DNA from: a virus
Length of the DNA: 34,918 nt
Direction: 5' to 3' (one strand)
IMG/VR virus record: IMGVR_UViG_3300034012_000466
Coordinates: 1 to 34,918 of that record
The stretch's first letter is position 1. Every line of letters starts with the position of its first letter. Under the pieces are notes generated by a model. That model was given only the letters and a program-made list of their open reading frames with translations, did no database searches and had not been told where the DNA came from. Shown here in pieces: positions 11,996-34,641 of the stretch. The position numbers were made by a program, and so were the translations under genes.

Positions 11996-12480
11996 TGCGA
12001 AGTCCAAGTATTCGATGAATACGTTTGCTCTGTCCAAACATTTGAACCGGGTATTTCATCTGTCCATGTGTTTGCGTCACCATCAGGGATAGACCAAACA
12101 CCAAGCACAGACACTACACCAATACTACCGATAAGACCGAACCCAGTTACATCAAGATAGTTGTTGCTCTCAAGCGTTACAGTTCCGAGAGCAGTGGTTC
12201 CCTGAACACCAGTGACAGGAACCCGGACAACGATAAGAACAGTCAGTGTACCTGTTTGACCTGTTGCAGAAACACCTGTTAGCAGTACGTTTGCACTAGC
12301 AGAGACAACTACAGAACCAGTTTGCCCAGATGCTGAAACACCGGTAACTGGTACATTTGCGTTAGCAACAACAACAACAGAACCAACCTGCCCAGTCGCA
12401 GAAACGCCGGTAACATCAACAATTGCATTGTTTCCAGTTTCTGAAAATGGAAACTCTGCAAATGGTGCGAAGCCGAACAT
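11992..12480 (-). CDS. Repeat-containing tail/virion protein (22-residue VTGV repeats)
   Basis: A 162-residue protein. Five 22-residue repeats start near residue 23, each opening with (V/L)TGVSA-type sequence and running into a valine-rich strand (GQVGSVVVVANANVP). The C-terminus has three Trp-Thr motifs (NTWTDE, NVWTEQ, NTWTSQ). The pattern suggests stacked beta hairpins in a fibre or surface protein. Start and stop overlap both neighbours by 1 and 4 bases. Confidence 0.7.
   Translation of the reverse strand: MFGFAPFAEFPFSETGNNAIVDVTGVSATGQVGSVVVVANANVPVTGVSASGQTGSVVVSASANVLLTGVSATGQTGTLTVLIVVRVPVTGVQGTTALGTVTLESNNYLDVTGFGLIGSIGVVSVLGVWSIPDGDANTWTDEIPGSNVWTEQTYSSNTWTSQ
12085..12414. repeat. 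66-bp tandem coding repeats (five units)
   Basis: Five consecutive 66-bp units, most alike in the first three and more diverged in the last two, encode the 22-residue VTGV repeats of the 11992-12480 protein. Confidence 0.75.
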
Positions 12481-30008: not shown

Positions 30009-30554
30009 TTAATCGACAGCGACAGGTCTATAGATTTCCTTTATACCCAGCAGTTGACCCCTAGCTTCCGGGGTGCAGTCCCGTCCGTCTGTGGCGATAT
30101 GGTGATCCCAGATATCTCTCAGCCTAGTGTCTTGCTTGACACCTCTCCAGAGCAGCATGACAGCCTGTGCTGACTTTGGGTGCTTTGCCCAATGCAACGG
30201 ATCGTATGCTGGTGTCCTGATCTGTGCTACAGCAGACTGGATGAGCTTCTGGCCTTCCGGAGTGATCTCCTTGGCTGGAGGTGGCAGCGCGGTCTTGTGC
30301 TCTGGTCGGTTGAACTGCTTGCACAGACGGATGAACTCTGCAAGCGCAGGTGGCCACTCAGGAGGGTTCTCAGCTAGAGACGCCAGCGCAGCACGAATGG
30401 CATCAGGGTTAGCTGATCGCAGGAACTGCTCCCAGGCTGCCGACAGATCAGACCATGATTGATCTGACACATTGAACACAGCTTTGGTCTTGTTGCTTCC
30501 AAACAGCGTCTCAAAACGGAACAGAATCCTCTGGAAGTACGGGAACTTGTCCAT
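30009..30554 (-). CDS. Replication protein P-like (possible helicase loader partner)
   Basis: A 181-residue protein. The first half (SDLSAAWEQFLRSANPDAIR; ASLAENPPEWPPALAEFIRL) has the pattern of lambda P-type replication proteins, whose C-terminal parts bind the host DnaB helicase. It follows the DUF1376-type initiator, overlapping it by 44 bp, as lambda P follows O. GGAG at 7 nt precedes the ATG. No Walker motif is present, so it is not a DnaC-type ATPase. Moderately sure. Confidence 0.6.
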   Translation of the reverse strand: MDKFPYFQRILFRFETLFGSNKTKAVFNVSDQSWSDLSAAWEQFLRSANPDAIRAALASLAENPPEWPPALAEFIRLCKQFNRPEHKTALPPPAKEITPEGQKLIQSAVAQIRTPAYDPLHWAKHPKSAQAVMLLWRGVKQDTRLRDIWDHHIATDGRDCTPEARGQLLGIKEIYRPVAVD

Positions 30555-31263
30555 TGCTCGTCTCCATGTCGATGGTGTCGAAACTTGAAAATCTTGCTTT
30601 CCAACTATCGTCTTTGCGCTGCTTCTCTGTCACAGCACGTTGATTGCGAACCCAGTTCTTCCATGTTGCAAACCAATCAGCTTTTACGCCTTTAGAACCT
30701 GGGACTGCAATCCAGTAGTCGCAGAACACTTCAAAAACTTTTTCAGGCACAAGATCAGGTCTTTCGCTCCTACAGAACACTTCCCAATCAGGTGGCAACG
30801 TGTCAATTGAAAGGCGCGAGCCTTTACTACTACTACGTTTAGTAGTAGTAGTTGGTTCTTGGTTATTGGTTACTGGTTTATGGTTATTGGTTAGTTGAAC
30901 ATCTGTTGAGCCTGTGTCTAACACTTGTTGAACAGGTGTTGAACTAGTGTTCTTCTTGCGTTCAGCAGATGCCTTGCCAGCGTTGCTTCTCTTGTTGACA
31001 ATAGCCTTGTACTCAGCGATTTCCTTGTCGCATCTTGTATGCTTCCAAGCACCGTCTTCTAGCCTGAAGTAAGACTCCAAAATGAGCCTGACCGTACCAG
31101 CGTCTATACCGACCTGGAAGGCCAAAACATCAACTTTGTCTGGGAGTGGGCGCTCACTGTCGTAGTACATCCAAAGCAAACGCAGATAGGCCATTGACTG
31201 AGCATCTGTCAGCCTCGATGTGGCCTTTAGGAAGTCACCAATGTGGTGCTGGTAGTAATGCAA
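30511..31263 (-). CDS. DUF1376-type replication initiator
   Basis: A 250-residue protein. Residues 1-90 match the DUF1376/YdaU domain of phage replication initiators (YYQHHIGDFLKATSRL; AYLRLLWMYYDSERPLPD). A polar linker (~95-145) is encoded by the iteron-like repeats, and the C-terminal domain (PPDWEVFCRSERPDLVPEKV; GVKADWFATWKNWVRNQ) resembles those of O-like proteins. The protein ends PEDSVPF, like an SSB-type tip. The start is TTG with AGAGGAG at 6 nt, buried in a 13-bp stem. Confidence 0.8.
   Translation of the reverse strand: MHYYQHHIGDFLKATSRLTDAQSMAYLRLLWMYYDSERPLPDKVDVLAFQVGIDAGTVRLILESYFRLEDGAWKHTRCDKEIAEYKAIVNKRSNAGKASAERKKNTSSTPVQQVLDTGSTDVQLTNNHKPVTNNQEPTTTTKRSSSKGSRLSIDTLPPDWEVFCRSERPDLVPEKVFEVFCDYWIAVPGSKGVKADWFATWKNWVRNQRAVTEKQRKDDSWKARFSSFDTIDMETSNGQVPVLPEDSVPF
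30826..30951. other. Putative replication origin: iteron-like repeats inside the initiator gene
   Basis: Three elements lie side by side. First is an 11-bp perfect inverted repeat at 30826-30852 (ACTACTACTAC, 5-nt loop). Second are six 7-bp repeats NNTGGTT at 30851-30892. Third are five 11-bp repeats resembling GAACANNTGTT at 30897-30951. Periods of 7 and 11 are not multiples of 3, so protein repeats do not explain them. Lambdoid phages keep their origin inside the initiator gene in the same way. Confidence 0.75.
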
Positions 31264-32612: not shown

Positions 32613-32917
32613 AGTTCCTCCACCTTGCACTGCCACCTGTTGCCTTCCTTGTGCCAGCCATGAATCTGGACTCTCCACCCTGCGCGAACCATCTCAGGGT
32701 AGGCATCAGAGTCCTGGATTTTGTGTCTGCGGCTGCTCATGTTGGACTTGCTGGTGACCTGCACTGCAATGGTTTCACCAGCACCGATGGCCAGGATGTC
32801 TATGCAGCCAAACAGGTCGTGTTTGCGCTTTGTAAATCCGTTGTAATGCTCGACGATTGCGACCTTGTACCCGTCACCCTCGAGCAGCCACTTAGACCTA
32901 GCTGTCAGGGTGGTCAC
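32606..32917 (-). CDS. Restriction-fold nuclease-like protein
   Basis: A 103-residue protein. Sequence KWLLEGDGYKVAIVEHYN, KRKHDLFGCIDILAIG and TIAVQVTSKSNMSSR follow the layout of small PD-(D/E)XK-type or resolvase-like phage nucleases, with Asp-x-Phe-Gly-x3-Asp and Gln-x-Thr-Ser at the active-site positions. It is a possible Holliday-junction resolvase. The start is GTG at 32917, overlapping the regulator stop as GTGA. Confidence 0.7.
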   Translation of the reverse strand: MTTLTARSKWLLEGDGYKVAIVEHYNGFTKRKHDLFGCIDILAIGAGETIAVQVTSKSNMSSRRHKIQDSDAYPEMVRAGWRVQIHGWHKEGNRWQCKVEELC

Positions 32918-33144
32918 TTGAACCCCGCATATTGATCGACAGTGTTGAAAAACCCCGGAACAAGCCACTCTTTGCGAACCTTGCCACCAGTCAACTCCTC
33001 GATCTGGATCGCCCTGGGCAGCGGGACTTTGCCAGCTTTCCTCCATGAGTACAGGTTCTGACGGTGGAGCTTGAGAGCAAGACAGAGCTTGCCCTTGCCG
33101 CCAACGATGGCAGCAGCGTAGTCGAGAGCGTTAGAGACATTCAT
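32914..33144 (-). CDS. YdaS/Cro-like helix-turn-helix regulator
   Basis: A 76-residue protein with the single-domain Cro/YdaS pattern: ALDYAAAIVGGKGKLCLALK, HRQNLYSWRKAGKVPLPRA and QIEELTGGKVRKEWLVP. It probably binds the palindrome in the adjacent divergent promoter and controls the early operons. The ATG at 33144 has AGGAGG 7 nt upstream. No CI-like partner is found. It is the first gene of the leftward series. Confidence 0.8.
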   Translation of the reverse strand: MNVSNALDYAAAIVGGKGKLCLALKLHRQNLYSWRKAGKVPLPRAIQIEELTGGKVRKEWLVPGFFNTVDQYAGFK

Positions 33145-33163
33145 TGTGTTACCTCCTGACCAC

Positions 33164-33192
33164 ATTACACCACATTGCTAATCGCTTGACAA
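33164..33192 (-). promoter_or_regulatory. Leftward promoter for the Cro-like gene
   Basis: Read leftward, TTGTCA (33192-33187), a 17-bp spacer and TGTAAT (33169-33164). The predicted start near 33157 gives a leader of about 13 nt, so AGGAGG begins almost at the RNA 5' end. The -35 shares bases with the rightward promoter. Confidence 0.6.
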
Positions 33193-33388: not shown

Positions 33389-33585
33389 TCAACGACCCTA
33401 ACTTCGTCTGGCGTAGCAGCGCAGCAACAGACGTAACAATCACATGGCGCAAGTTTGGTTGGACACCCATCTCAGAAAGGACAGACCATGAAGCAGATCG
33501 CATCCGCGCTCGTCAAAGCACAGCGCGAGTTTGGGCCAGCGTTGAAGACTTCCAGAAACCCTCACTTCAAGAGCAAGTACGCTGA
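33385..33585 (+). CDS. Small hypothetical protein overlapping ERF, 66 residues
   Basis: The ATG overlaps the stop of the membrane peptide as ATGA. The start MINDPNFVWRSSAATDVTIT and WRKFGWTPISE resemble a short conserved phage protein placed before recombinases. The second half runs over the ERF gene for 98 bp and may be an extension of little value. The role is unknown. Confidence 0.6.
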   Translation: MINDPNFVWRSSAATDVTITWRKFGWTPISERTDHEADRIRARQSTARVWASVEDFQKPSLQEQVR

Positions 33586-34036
33586 CCTTTCAGCGGTAGT
33601 CGAGGCTGTCATTGACGGTCTGAACAACAACGGGATCGCTCTGATCCAGCAGACGCATGAGTGCGAGTCTGGTGTCATCGTAGAGACATTGTTGATACAT
33701 GAGTCCGGTGAGCAGATCAGCGGAGGTCGGCTCCACGTTCCTGCAAGCAAACAGGATGCTCAGGGATACGGATCGGCTCTGACCTATGCCCGTCGCTACA
33801 GTTTGATGGCAACCACTGGCATCGCTCCAGAGGATGATGACGGTAATGCTGCCAGCAAGAAACAGGATCTAAACCCTGAAGTGATCGCACAGATCATCCT
33901 CAACACTCAGACGATGGATGACCTCAAGTCCTGCTATGCAAAAGCCTTCAAGCAGTTCCAGGGTGATCAGGATGCTCTGGCAGTGATTGAGGACGCAAAG
34001 AACAAGCGTAAGGCTGAACTGATGGAGATCAAGTGA
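33488..34036 (+). CDS. erf: ERF-family single-strand annealing protein
   Basis: A 182-residue protein. Family features are HFKSKYADLSAVVEAV near residue 26, and the hallmark GSALTYARRYSLMATTGIAP at residues 95-114. ERF proteins anneal single strands made by the exonuclease and can circularise or recombine phage DNA. AAGGA at 7 nt precedes the ATG at 33488. The C-terminal 60 residues are charged. Its TGA overlaps the exonuclease ATG. Confidence 0.92.
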   Translation: MKQIASALVKAQREFGPALKTSRNPHFKSKYADLSAVVEAVIDGLNNNGIALIQQTHECESGVIVETLLIHESGEQISGGRLHVPASKQDAQGYGSALTYARRYSLMATTGIAPEDDDGNAASKKQDLNPEVIAQIILNTQTMDDLKSCYAKAFKQFQGDQDALAVIEDAKNKRKAELMEIK

Positions 34037-34641
34037 TGGAACAGCGCAGCCCAGAATGGTTCGCTGCGCGTCTCGGGTCAGTCACCGCATCCAGGGTGTC
34101 GGATGCTCTTGCTGGCCCGGATACAGCATCCAGACGCAACTACCTCGTCCAGCTTGTCACAGAGCGACTGACAGGCCAACAGCAGGAGTCATTCACCAAC
34201 GCAGCAATGCAATGGGGAACAGACACAGAACCTCTAGCGCGTGTTGTGTATCAAGCCACACTTGAAGGTGATTCGTTCGTTGAGGAAGCACCATTCGTAA
34301 AGCATCCAACTATAGATTGGTTTGGTGCATCACCTGACGGATTCGTCAACGATGGATTGGTCGAGATCAAGTGCCCCAACAGCACGACACACATCGACTA
34401 CCTGATGGCTGGCAAAGTTCCAACCAAGTACCAGAAGCAGATGCTTGCTCAACTGGCTTGCACAGGCAGGGAATGGTGCGACTTTGTGTCGTTCGATCCT
34501 AGAGTCCCAGAGCATCTACAGTTGTTTGTAGTGCGGTTCCAACCCAAGAAGGAGGAGATCCAGAAGCTGGAAGAAGGAGTGCAGAAGTTCTTGGATGAAG
34601 TCAACAAAGCAATGGAGAAACTGAATGCCAGCAAAGTATGA
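34036..34641 (+). CDS. YqaJ-type (lambda exonuclease-like) recombination nuclease, copy B
   Basis: The second allele of the 14-619 gene, with the same length and catalytic residues (Asp101, Glu110-x-Lys112). Changes from copy A include Ala31Ser, Lys77Glu, Ala80Ser, Asp84Glu and Tyr103Phe, all conservative or surface-type, while residues after 112 are the same. This copy is preceded by the complete ERF gene. The pattern says two natural variants, not sequencing errors. Confidence 0.9.
   Translation: MEQRSPEWFAARLGSVTASRVSDALAGPDTASRRNYLVQLVTERLTGQQQESFTNAAMQWGTDTEPLARVVYQATLEGDSFVEEAPFVKHPTIDWFGASPDGFVNDGLVEIKCPNSTTHIDYLMAGKVPTKYQKQMLAQLACTGREWCDFVSFDPRVPEHLQLFVVRFQPKKEEIQKLEEGVQKFLDEVNKAMEKLNASKV

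Follow-up and report, generated by a model that had tools for sequence, protein, structure and literature searches.

In this work, a composite repeat array was recognized in the linker codons of a DUF1376 gene, and it is very probably the replication origin of the phage, lying within the gene for its own initiator. The sequence analysed is a 34,918-bp IMG/VR virus record, and this whole stretch is referred to as the window. The array is best read as an origin of the lambda kind, belonging to a family of initiators that has been little described and in which 'tail plus iteron' cassettes would be exchangeable; that the origin is in outline lambda-like and worked by the DUF1376 protein is likely.

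The initiator gene (30511-31263, minus strand) encodes a lambda-O-like protein of 250 aa from a TTG start, an assignment based on PF07120, PHROGs, and an AF2 model. The product matches PF07120 (DUF1376) with an E value of 2.4e-19 and 69.9 bits against a gathering score of 30.1, and the same match was found in 60 of 60 aligned relatives. Its PHROGs matches are named 'primosomal protein' and 'replication initiation protein', and the lambda O family is not named among its Pfam and PHROGs matches, which comprise only DUF1376 and primosomal or replication-initiation families. The protein would be a functional counterpart of lambda O and is not classed here with the O homologues. In the AF2 model, a confident winged-helix DUF1376 domain (residues 1-85; 31009-31263, minus strand; pLDDT mostly 95-98; secondary structure HHHH-EE-H) ends in a long helix that reaches about residue 106. 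The linker behind it (about 107-150) is of low confidence and leads to a C-terminal domain that is helical (30633-30816, minus strand). The tail of the long helix is basic (residues 86-107; 30943-31008, minus strand) and contains SNAGKASAERKK. Fold matches of the winged-helix domain in the PDB comprised 23 chains with Z of 5.0-5.8, those listed being mostly winged-helix DNA- or RNA-binding proteins. Foldseek and VIA-align returned generic winged-helix matches for the window protein (Z about 5-6) among which no initiator stands out, and a PDB sequence search found no relative, its only match having an E value of 0.076. The DNA of the window and of its relative L002 is about 99% identical through the heptad end, about 50% in the C-terminal domain, and about 100% in the last 60 nt or so. 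Judged from this comparison, the difference is a clean cassette swap of the C-terminal domain with near-identical DNA on either side.

The gene downstream (30009-30554, minus strand; 181 aa) overlaps the initiator gene and occupies the position of lambda P, a position that suggests a corresponding role; its product has no family match in Pfam or PHROGs. The equivalent place in MW202520 is annotated as replication protein P, and in most annotated relatives the gene next after the DUF1376 gene is P-like, a DnaC-like or helicase-loader gene, or a helicase gene. On the other side, at 32914-33165 and 33455-34641, the initiator gene is adjoined by a gene for a YdaS/Cro-like regulator and by ERF and YqaJ recombination genes, which are encoded on the opposite strand; this gene content resembles the replication region of E. 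coli Rac. Elsewhere in the window, a 66-bp tandem repeat is present in 2.5 copies at 12250-12414 (TRF score 176).

On the coding strand, the linker codons carry, in this order, in-phase 11-bp units of the form GTTSAAC-N4, six AACCANN heptads, and perfect inverted repeats. The preliminary description had reported five 11-bp units at 30897-30951, six 7-bp units at 30851-30892, and an inverted repeat at 30826-30852, and all three were recovered. The 11-bp units are close to GAACANNTGTT, and the array extends by two degenerate in-phase units (GAAGAAC and GCTGAAC, 30945-30966) that overlap the tail codons, so that the whole array spans 30897-30966 on the minus strand with five clear and two degenerate units. 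Each of the six heptads is exactly NNTGGTT, that is, AACCANN on the coding (minus) strand, and the form is conserved across the family. With a GC content of 36%, the heptad block falls within the most AT-rich 2% of all 42-mers in the window. The inverted repeat follows immediately after the heptads and has perfect 11-bp arms (30826-30836 and 30842-30852) around a 5-nt loop. Beside it lies a second perfect hairpin (30810-30825) of the form AAAGGC-GCGA-GCCTTT, with a 6-bp stem and a GCGA loop, whose codons give the KGSRL peptide that corresponds to the hairpin site in many relatives. A pattern of four spaced AACC matched the window once, at the array itself, and had no match in 100 shuffles.

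The array is selected as DNA and is the product of neither chance nor protein selection. In codon-preserving synonymous shuffles of the window, which keep the protein fixed, period-7 matches numbered 18.4±2.8 compared with the observed 31 of 40, which none of 20,000 shuffles reached; period-11 matches were 29 of 50 against 18.6±3.2 (P=0.0008). The codon choice in relatives points the same way. In 66 linkers ascertained by protein similarity only, the codons within N[QH]xPxT were compared with the rest of the same genes: Pro was CCA in 72/73 cases (259/607 in the rest), Ile was ATA in 28/28 (113/619), Thr was ACC in 69/73 (212/810), and Asn was AAC in 73/73 (328/619). Furthermore, 60 divergent genes were compared with codon-preserving shuffles, their 110 residues preceding the array having a positional identity of less than 70%. 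In these genes, the heptad block gave a mean z of 3.7 at periods 7 and 14, and the 60 nt upstream of the heptads gave 2.93±0.18 at period 11 and 2.02 at period 22. The other upstream periods in these 60 genes showed no excess over the shuffles, with mean z all below 1. The comparison of synonymous conservation in relatives that had been proposed as a check thus came out in favour of selection on DNA. It had been argued earlier that periods of 7 and 11 shift the reading frame, that protein repeats are therefore excluded, and that selection acts on DNA. The last part stands on the synonymous-codon tests, but the frame argument is not strict for period 7, because three heptads make 21 bp, which encode a repeated heptapeptide NxxPxTN.

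This coincidence is what speaks for a constraint on the protein, in which the repeated linker peptide (NQEPITN, VEQVLNxCSTD) would be under selection and the DNA repeats would be its shadow; moreover, P130, T132, and N127 are invariant or almost so in 60 proteins. Such a reading is highly improbable. It does not account for four-fold and rare synonymous choices that are nearly fixed, for periodicity above that of codon-preserving shuffles, or for a spacing that stays constant although the unit types change. In addition, the linker is of low confidence in the AF2 model, and Moraxella phage Mcat25 is short of exactly one 11-bp unit, which breaks the frame.

The spacing is conserved in related genomes, and its absence there had been named beforehand as a result that would speak against an origin. 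Eighty relatives from the protein search have the layout of the window, a few of them with degenerate heptad runs. A DNA scan of IMG/VR for five spaced AACC, blind to protein, gave at least 120 matches; 80 loci were read, and 72 of these lie in DUF1376 genes, 68 at about codon 110-220 of the ORF and four more in truncated ORFs. The remaining eight are tandem repeats, mostly without A at position 5. At heptad position 5, on which the search pattern placed no constraint, A is present in 97%. The preliminary description had considered a double array of different period unusual, but within the DUF1376 family it is the common layout. In a sample of 20 named phages chosen by protein, which included phages of Moraxella, Acinetobacter, Pseudomonas, Methylophilaceae, Chlorobiaceae, Vibrio, and Shewanella, at least four exact heptads were present in 10 DUF1376 genes and a significant period of 5-8 bp, mostly 7, in 16. 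Among 21 DUF1376 genes of cellular genomes, at least four exact heptads were found in two, both reached via similarity to the window protein, a significant 5-8-bp period in 11, and an 11-bp period in 10. Other forms occur in place of the heptad, among them the (AACCAG)n of Bordetella phage IFTN2, the (ATACAG)n of Pseudomonas phage AH02, and the AAAGAT/ACAGAT of E. coli Rac ydaU. Universality of the heptads in DUF1376 genes was rejected, as they are absent from E. coli Rac ydaU and from most copies in cellular genomes; ydaU has GTTSAA-type units without heptads, and thus heptads are not essential family-wide. It was likewise rejected that AACC heptads are a generic repeat: three of 299 Pseudomonadota genomes matched four AACCANN units, all as near-perfect tandem repeats, and such matches were no commoner than those of a reversed control pattern. 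The general plan across these sequences is initiator iterons, a short strand-asymmetric repeat, and usually a hairpin, with AACCANN as the dominant form of the repeat.

Several single loci deserve mention. Five AACC heptads are present in the DUF1376 gene of a Planctomycetaceae bacterium, on a MAG contig (L205/L206) from outside Pseudomonadota. The unit loss in Moraxella phage Mcat25 (L240) is seen in comparison with Mcat21 (L238); it shifts the linker frame, so that the initiator is annotated as two separate ORFs, and since the search score of Mcat28 equals that of Mcat25, the loss may be common to both. Linker arrays were also observed in initiator genes with unrelated N-termini, as 22-bp AACAGTCCCAAAT units in Burkholderia phage Bcep176 gp11 (L258) and as 8-bp CTGATTCT units in Pseudomonas phage LESphi2 (L254), both followed by a common RGxRLP-coding hairpin region, so the layout may reach beyond DUF1376. 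In Pseudomonas phage MR13 (L241), the DUF1376 initiator is annotated as 'putative antirepressor protein' and its neighbour as 'globin', which look like misannotations.

The hairpin is the least certain part of the layout. A stem of at least 6 bp within 60 nt after the heptads was present in 40% of 60 genes and in 9% of 494 other windows of the same genes (P=2e-15), but gene by gene the excess over codon-preserving shuffles is weaker, with 30% of genes at P≤0.05. At many loci, the hairpin tips after the heptads show recurring loop contexts, such as CTGAAG, CTGACGG, ACTGTCGT, and GCTAAAGC, in unrelated stems, which suggests a preferred tip sequence.

While the heptad is nearly constant, the 11-bp unit is of at least five types and switches between near-identical DUF1376 domains, and its type tracks that of the basic tail. 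With the unit type called solely from the DNA between the tail segment and the first heptad, tail AGKASA was accompanied by unit GTTSAAC in 72/72 genes, GGRPK by AACCCA in 20/22, GAxxRW by CCCCYAA in 10/12, AxxRW by GCGAACGCA in 4/6, and RIKSE by AATCAG in 3/3. Among 27 held-out genes that were not used for the rule, including E. coli ydaU as the copy in phage 683R6 (L253), the predicted unit was present in 20, none or a weak one in seven, and a wrong one in none; the classes were drawn by eye, the regular expressions were tuned on the first set, and the AGKASA expression was slightly loosened for the held-out set. About 20 changes of tail type were counted on the tree of the globular domain, and the independent contrasts are few, three on well-supported branches and seven on the best tree, and those tested all agree. 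Domains up to 85% identical have different units (L087 with GTTSAAC vs L089/L095 with CCCCYAA-like units; L063 with GTTSAAC vs L071 with AACCCA), and the globular DUF1376 domain as the sole reader of the 11-bp unit was therefore rejected. The alignments of such pairs lose their similarity suddenly around residue 85-90, the point at which a short basic segment of one kind gives way to another. There is about an even chance that the basic tail sets the 11-bp specificity. The 11-bp array, with which the tail codons are partly in phase (SAER = GCTGAACG), could itself account for part of the tail type as a by-product, and sequence alone does not tell cause from by-product; close linkage by itself could also carry tail and unit together. 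We tentatively hypothesize, at slightly less than even odds, that DUF1376 initiators are two-part readers, in which a constant winged helix would go with the constant AACCANN and an exchangeable tail would dictate the 11-bp iteron. Because the tail codons abut their own putative binding sites, protein specificity and DNA target would then move between phages as one cassette.

An origin inside the initiator gene is already known from lambda, and the comparison with gene O drawn in the preliminary description is supported by position (the linker between the DNA-binding and C-terminal domains), order, strand, gene context, and the spacing kept in relatives. The gene O linker has, in the same strand sense as the window, four 18-bp iterons, then A-rich DNA, and then an inverted repeat. 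The lambda origin occupies the middle of gene O, its AT-rich tract is crucial for unwinding, and O binds single-stranded A/T-rich DNA (PMC7466680); the four 18-bp iterons are joined to a 38-bp AT-rich sequence (PMC3349717). Common to both systems are an origin, in the window a probable one, that lies in the linker and has iterons, an AT-rich strand-asymmetric segment and an inverted repeat, and an exchangeable C-terminal domain; a P-like or loader gene comes next in lambda and in most annotated relatives of the window gene. However, the lambda iterons are palindromic and its 38-bp tract is non-repetitive, whereas in the window the iterons are direct units of 11 bp and AACCANN forms a regular array, its protein belongs to the DUF1376 family, and the type of iteron varies with a short tail segment and not with the globular domain. 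E. coli Rac ydaU-ydaV also consists of a DUF1376 gene and then a DnaC-like gene, with an AGKASV tail and GTTCAA/GTTGAA units in the ydaU linker, and Rac has an active but repressed origin, oriJ (PMC3945230). It differs from the window in that a 6-bp-type AAAGAT/ACAGAT repeat takes the place of the AACC heptads. Iteron plasmid origins of the RK2, R6K, and F type resemble the window in having direct-repeat iterons beside a DNA unwinding element, but there the origin lies outside the rep gene, the iterons are about 17-22 bp long, and there is no constant 7-bp array. The DnaA-trio repeats, which are short, strand-specific, and placed beside initiator boxes, are comparable to the heptads, but have a 3-bp period and are bound by DnaA, while the heptads are 7 bp long.

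From the anatomy (order, strand, and spacing) and the selection on it, we infer that the DUF1376 protein would bind the array and that replication would start there, and the binding steps are inferred in the same way. The protein would bind the 11-bp units on one face of the DNA, since they are spaced by about one helical turn, with the basic tail setting which unit is read. Binding would strain and open the heptad block, which is AT-rich and strand-asymmetric; its constant core, AACCA, may be read by the constant winged-helix domain or as a single strand; it is somewhat probable that the heptads are the unwinding element. The hairpin would mark the far edge of the opened site, and the exchangeable C-terminal domain would hand it on to the product of the neighbouring gene, a helicase or its loader. 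GC skew was uninformative as an origin signal in the window, where it simply follows gene direction.

Other functions of the array were weighed against that of an origin. A protein on the 11-bp array might repress its own operon or pace replication by handcuffing, with the real origin elsewhere. Iterons often serve control besides initiation, and both this and the mid-gene position of the array count for such an operator, but it would leave the heptads, the hairpin, and the lambda-like order unexplained, and the array types travel with the initiator gene, so it is considered unlikely. Considerably less probable is a recombination junction, in which repeats and hairpin would be kept for initiator domain swaps (mosaicism by Erf-type recombinases). 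Annealing needs sequence identity as such and would not call for unit types that vary while the 7- and 11-bp phasing stays fixed, and domain swaps should arise incidentally at any conserved origin, although the breakpoint of the C-terminal domain swap at the heptad end, the ERF gene in this phage, and the swapping of tail/iteron cassettes at about residue 85 would fit it. Slightly less probable again is an RNA element that would act at the mRNA level, with antitermination and the control of translation as examples; the hairpin does lie in a transcribed region, but an Rfam search gave no match, and DNA is favoured by the 11-bp spacing, which is close to one turn of the DNA helix, and by the similar layout of the lambda DNA origin.

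No earlier description of this layout in DUF1376 genes was found in the open literature searched, subscription papers being outside its scope. As far as that literature goes, three points are new: the assignment to DUF1376, the constancy of the 7-bp element, and the putative cassette of tail and iteron. DUF1376 is still of 'unknown function' in Pfam and is mentioned by only five papers of the open literature searched. On the present evidence it is very probably a widespread family of phage initiators, and sequence alone would suffice to locate the exact origin in many phage genomes. The pairing of tail and iteron offers a recognition rule that can be tested, and with a near-constant heptad beside a switching iteron, natural variants are at hand for experiments on how phage initiators melt DNA.
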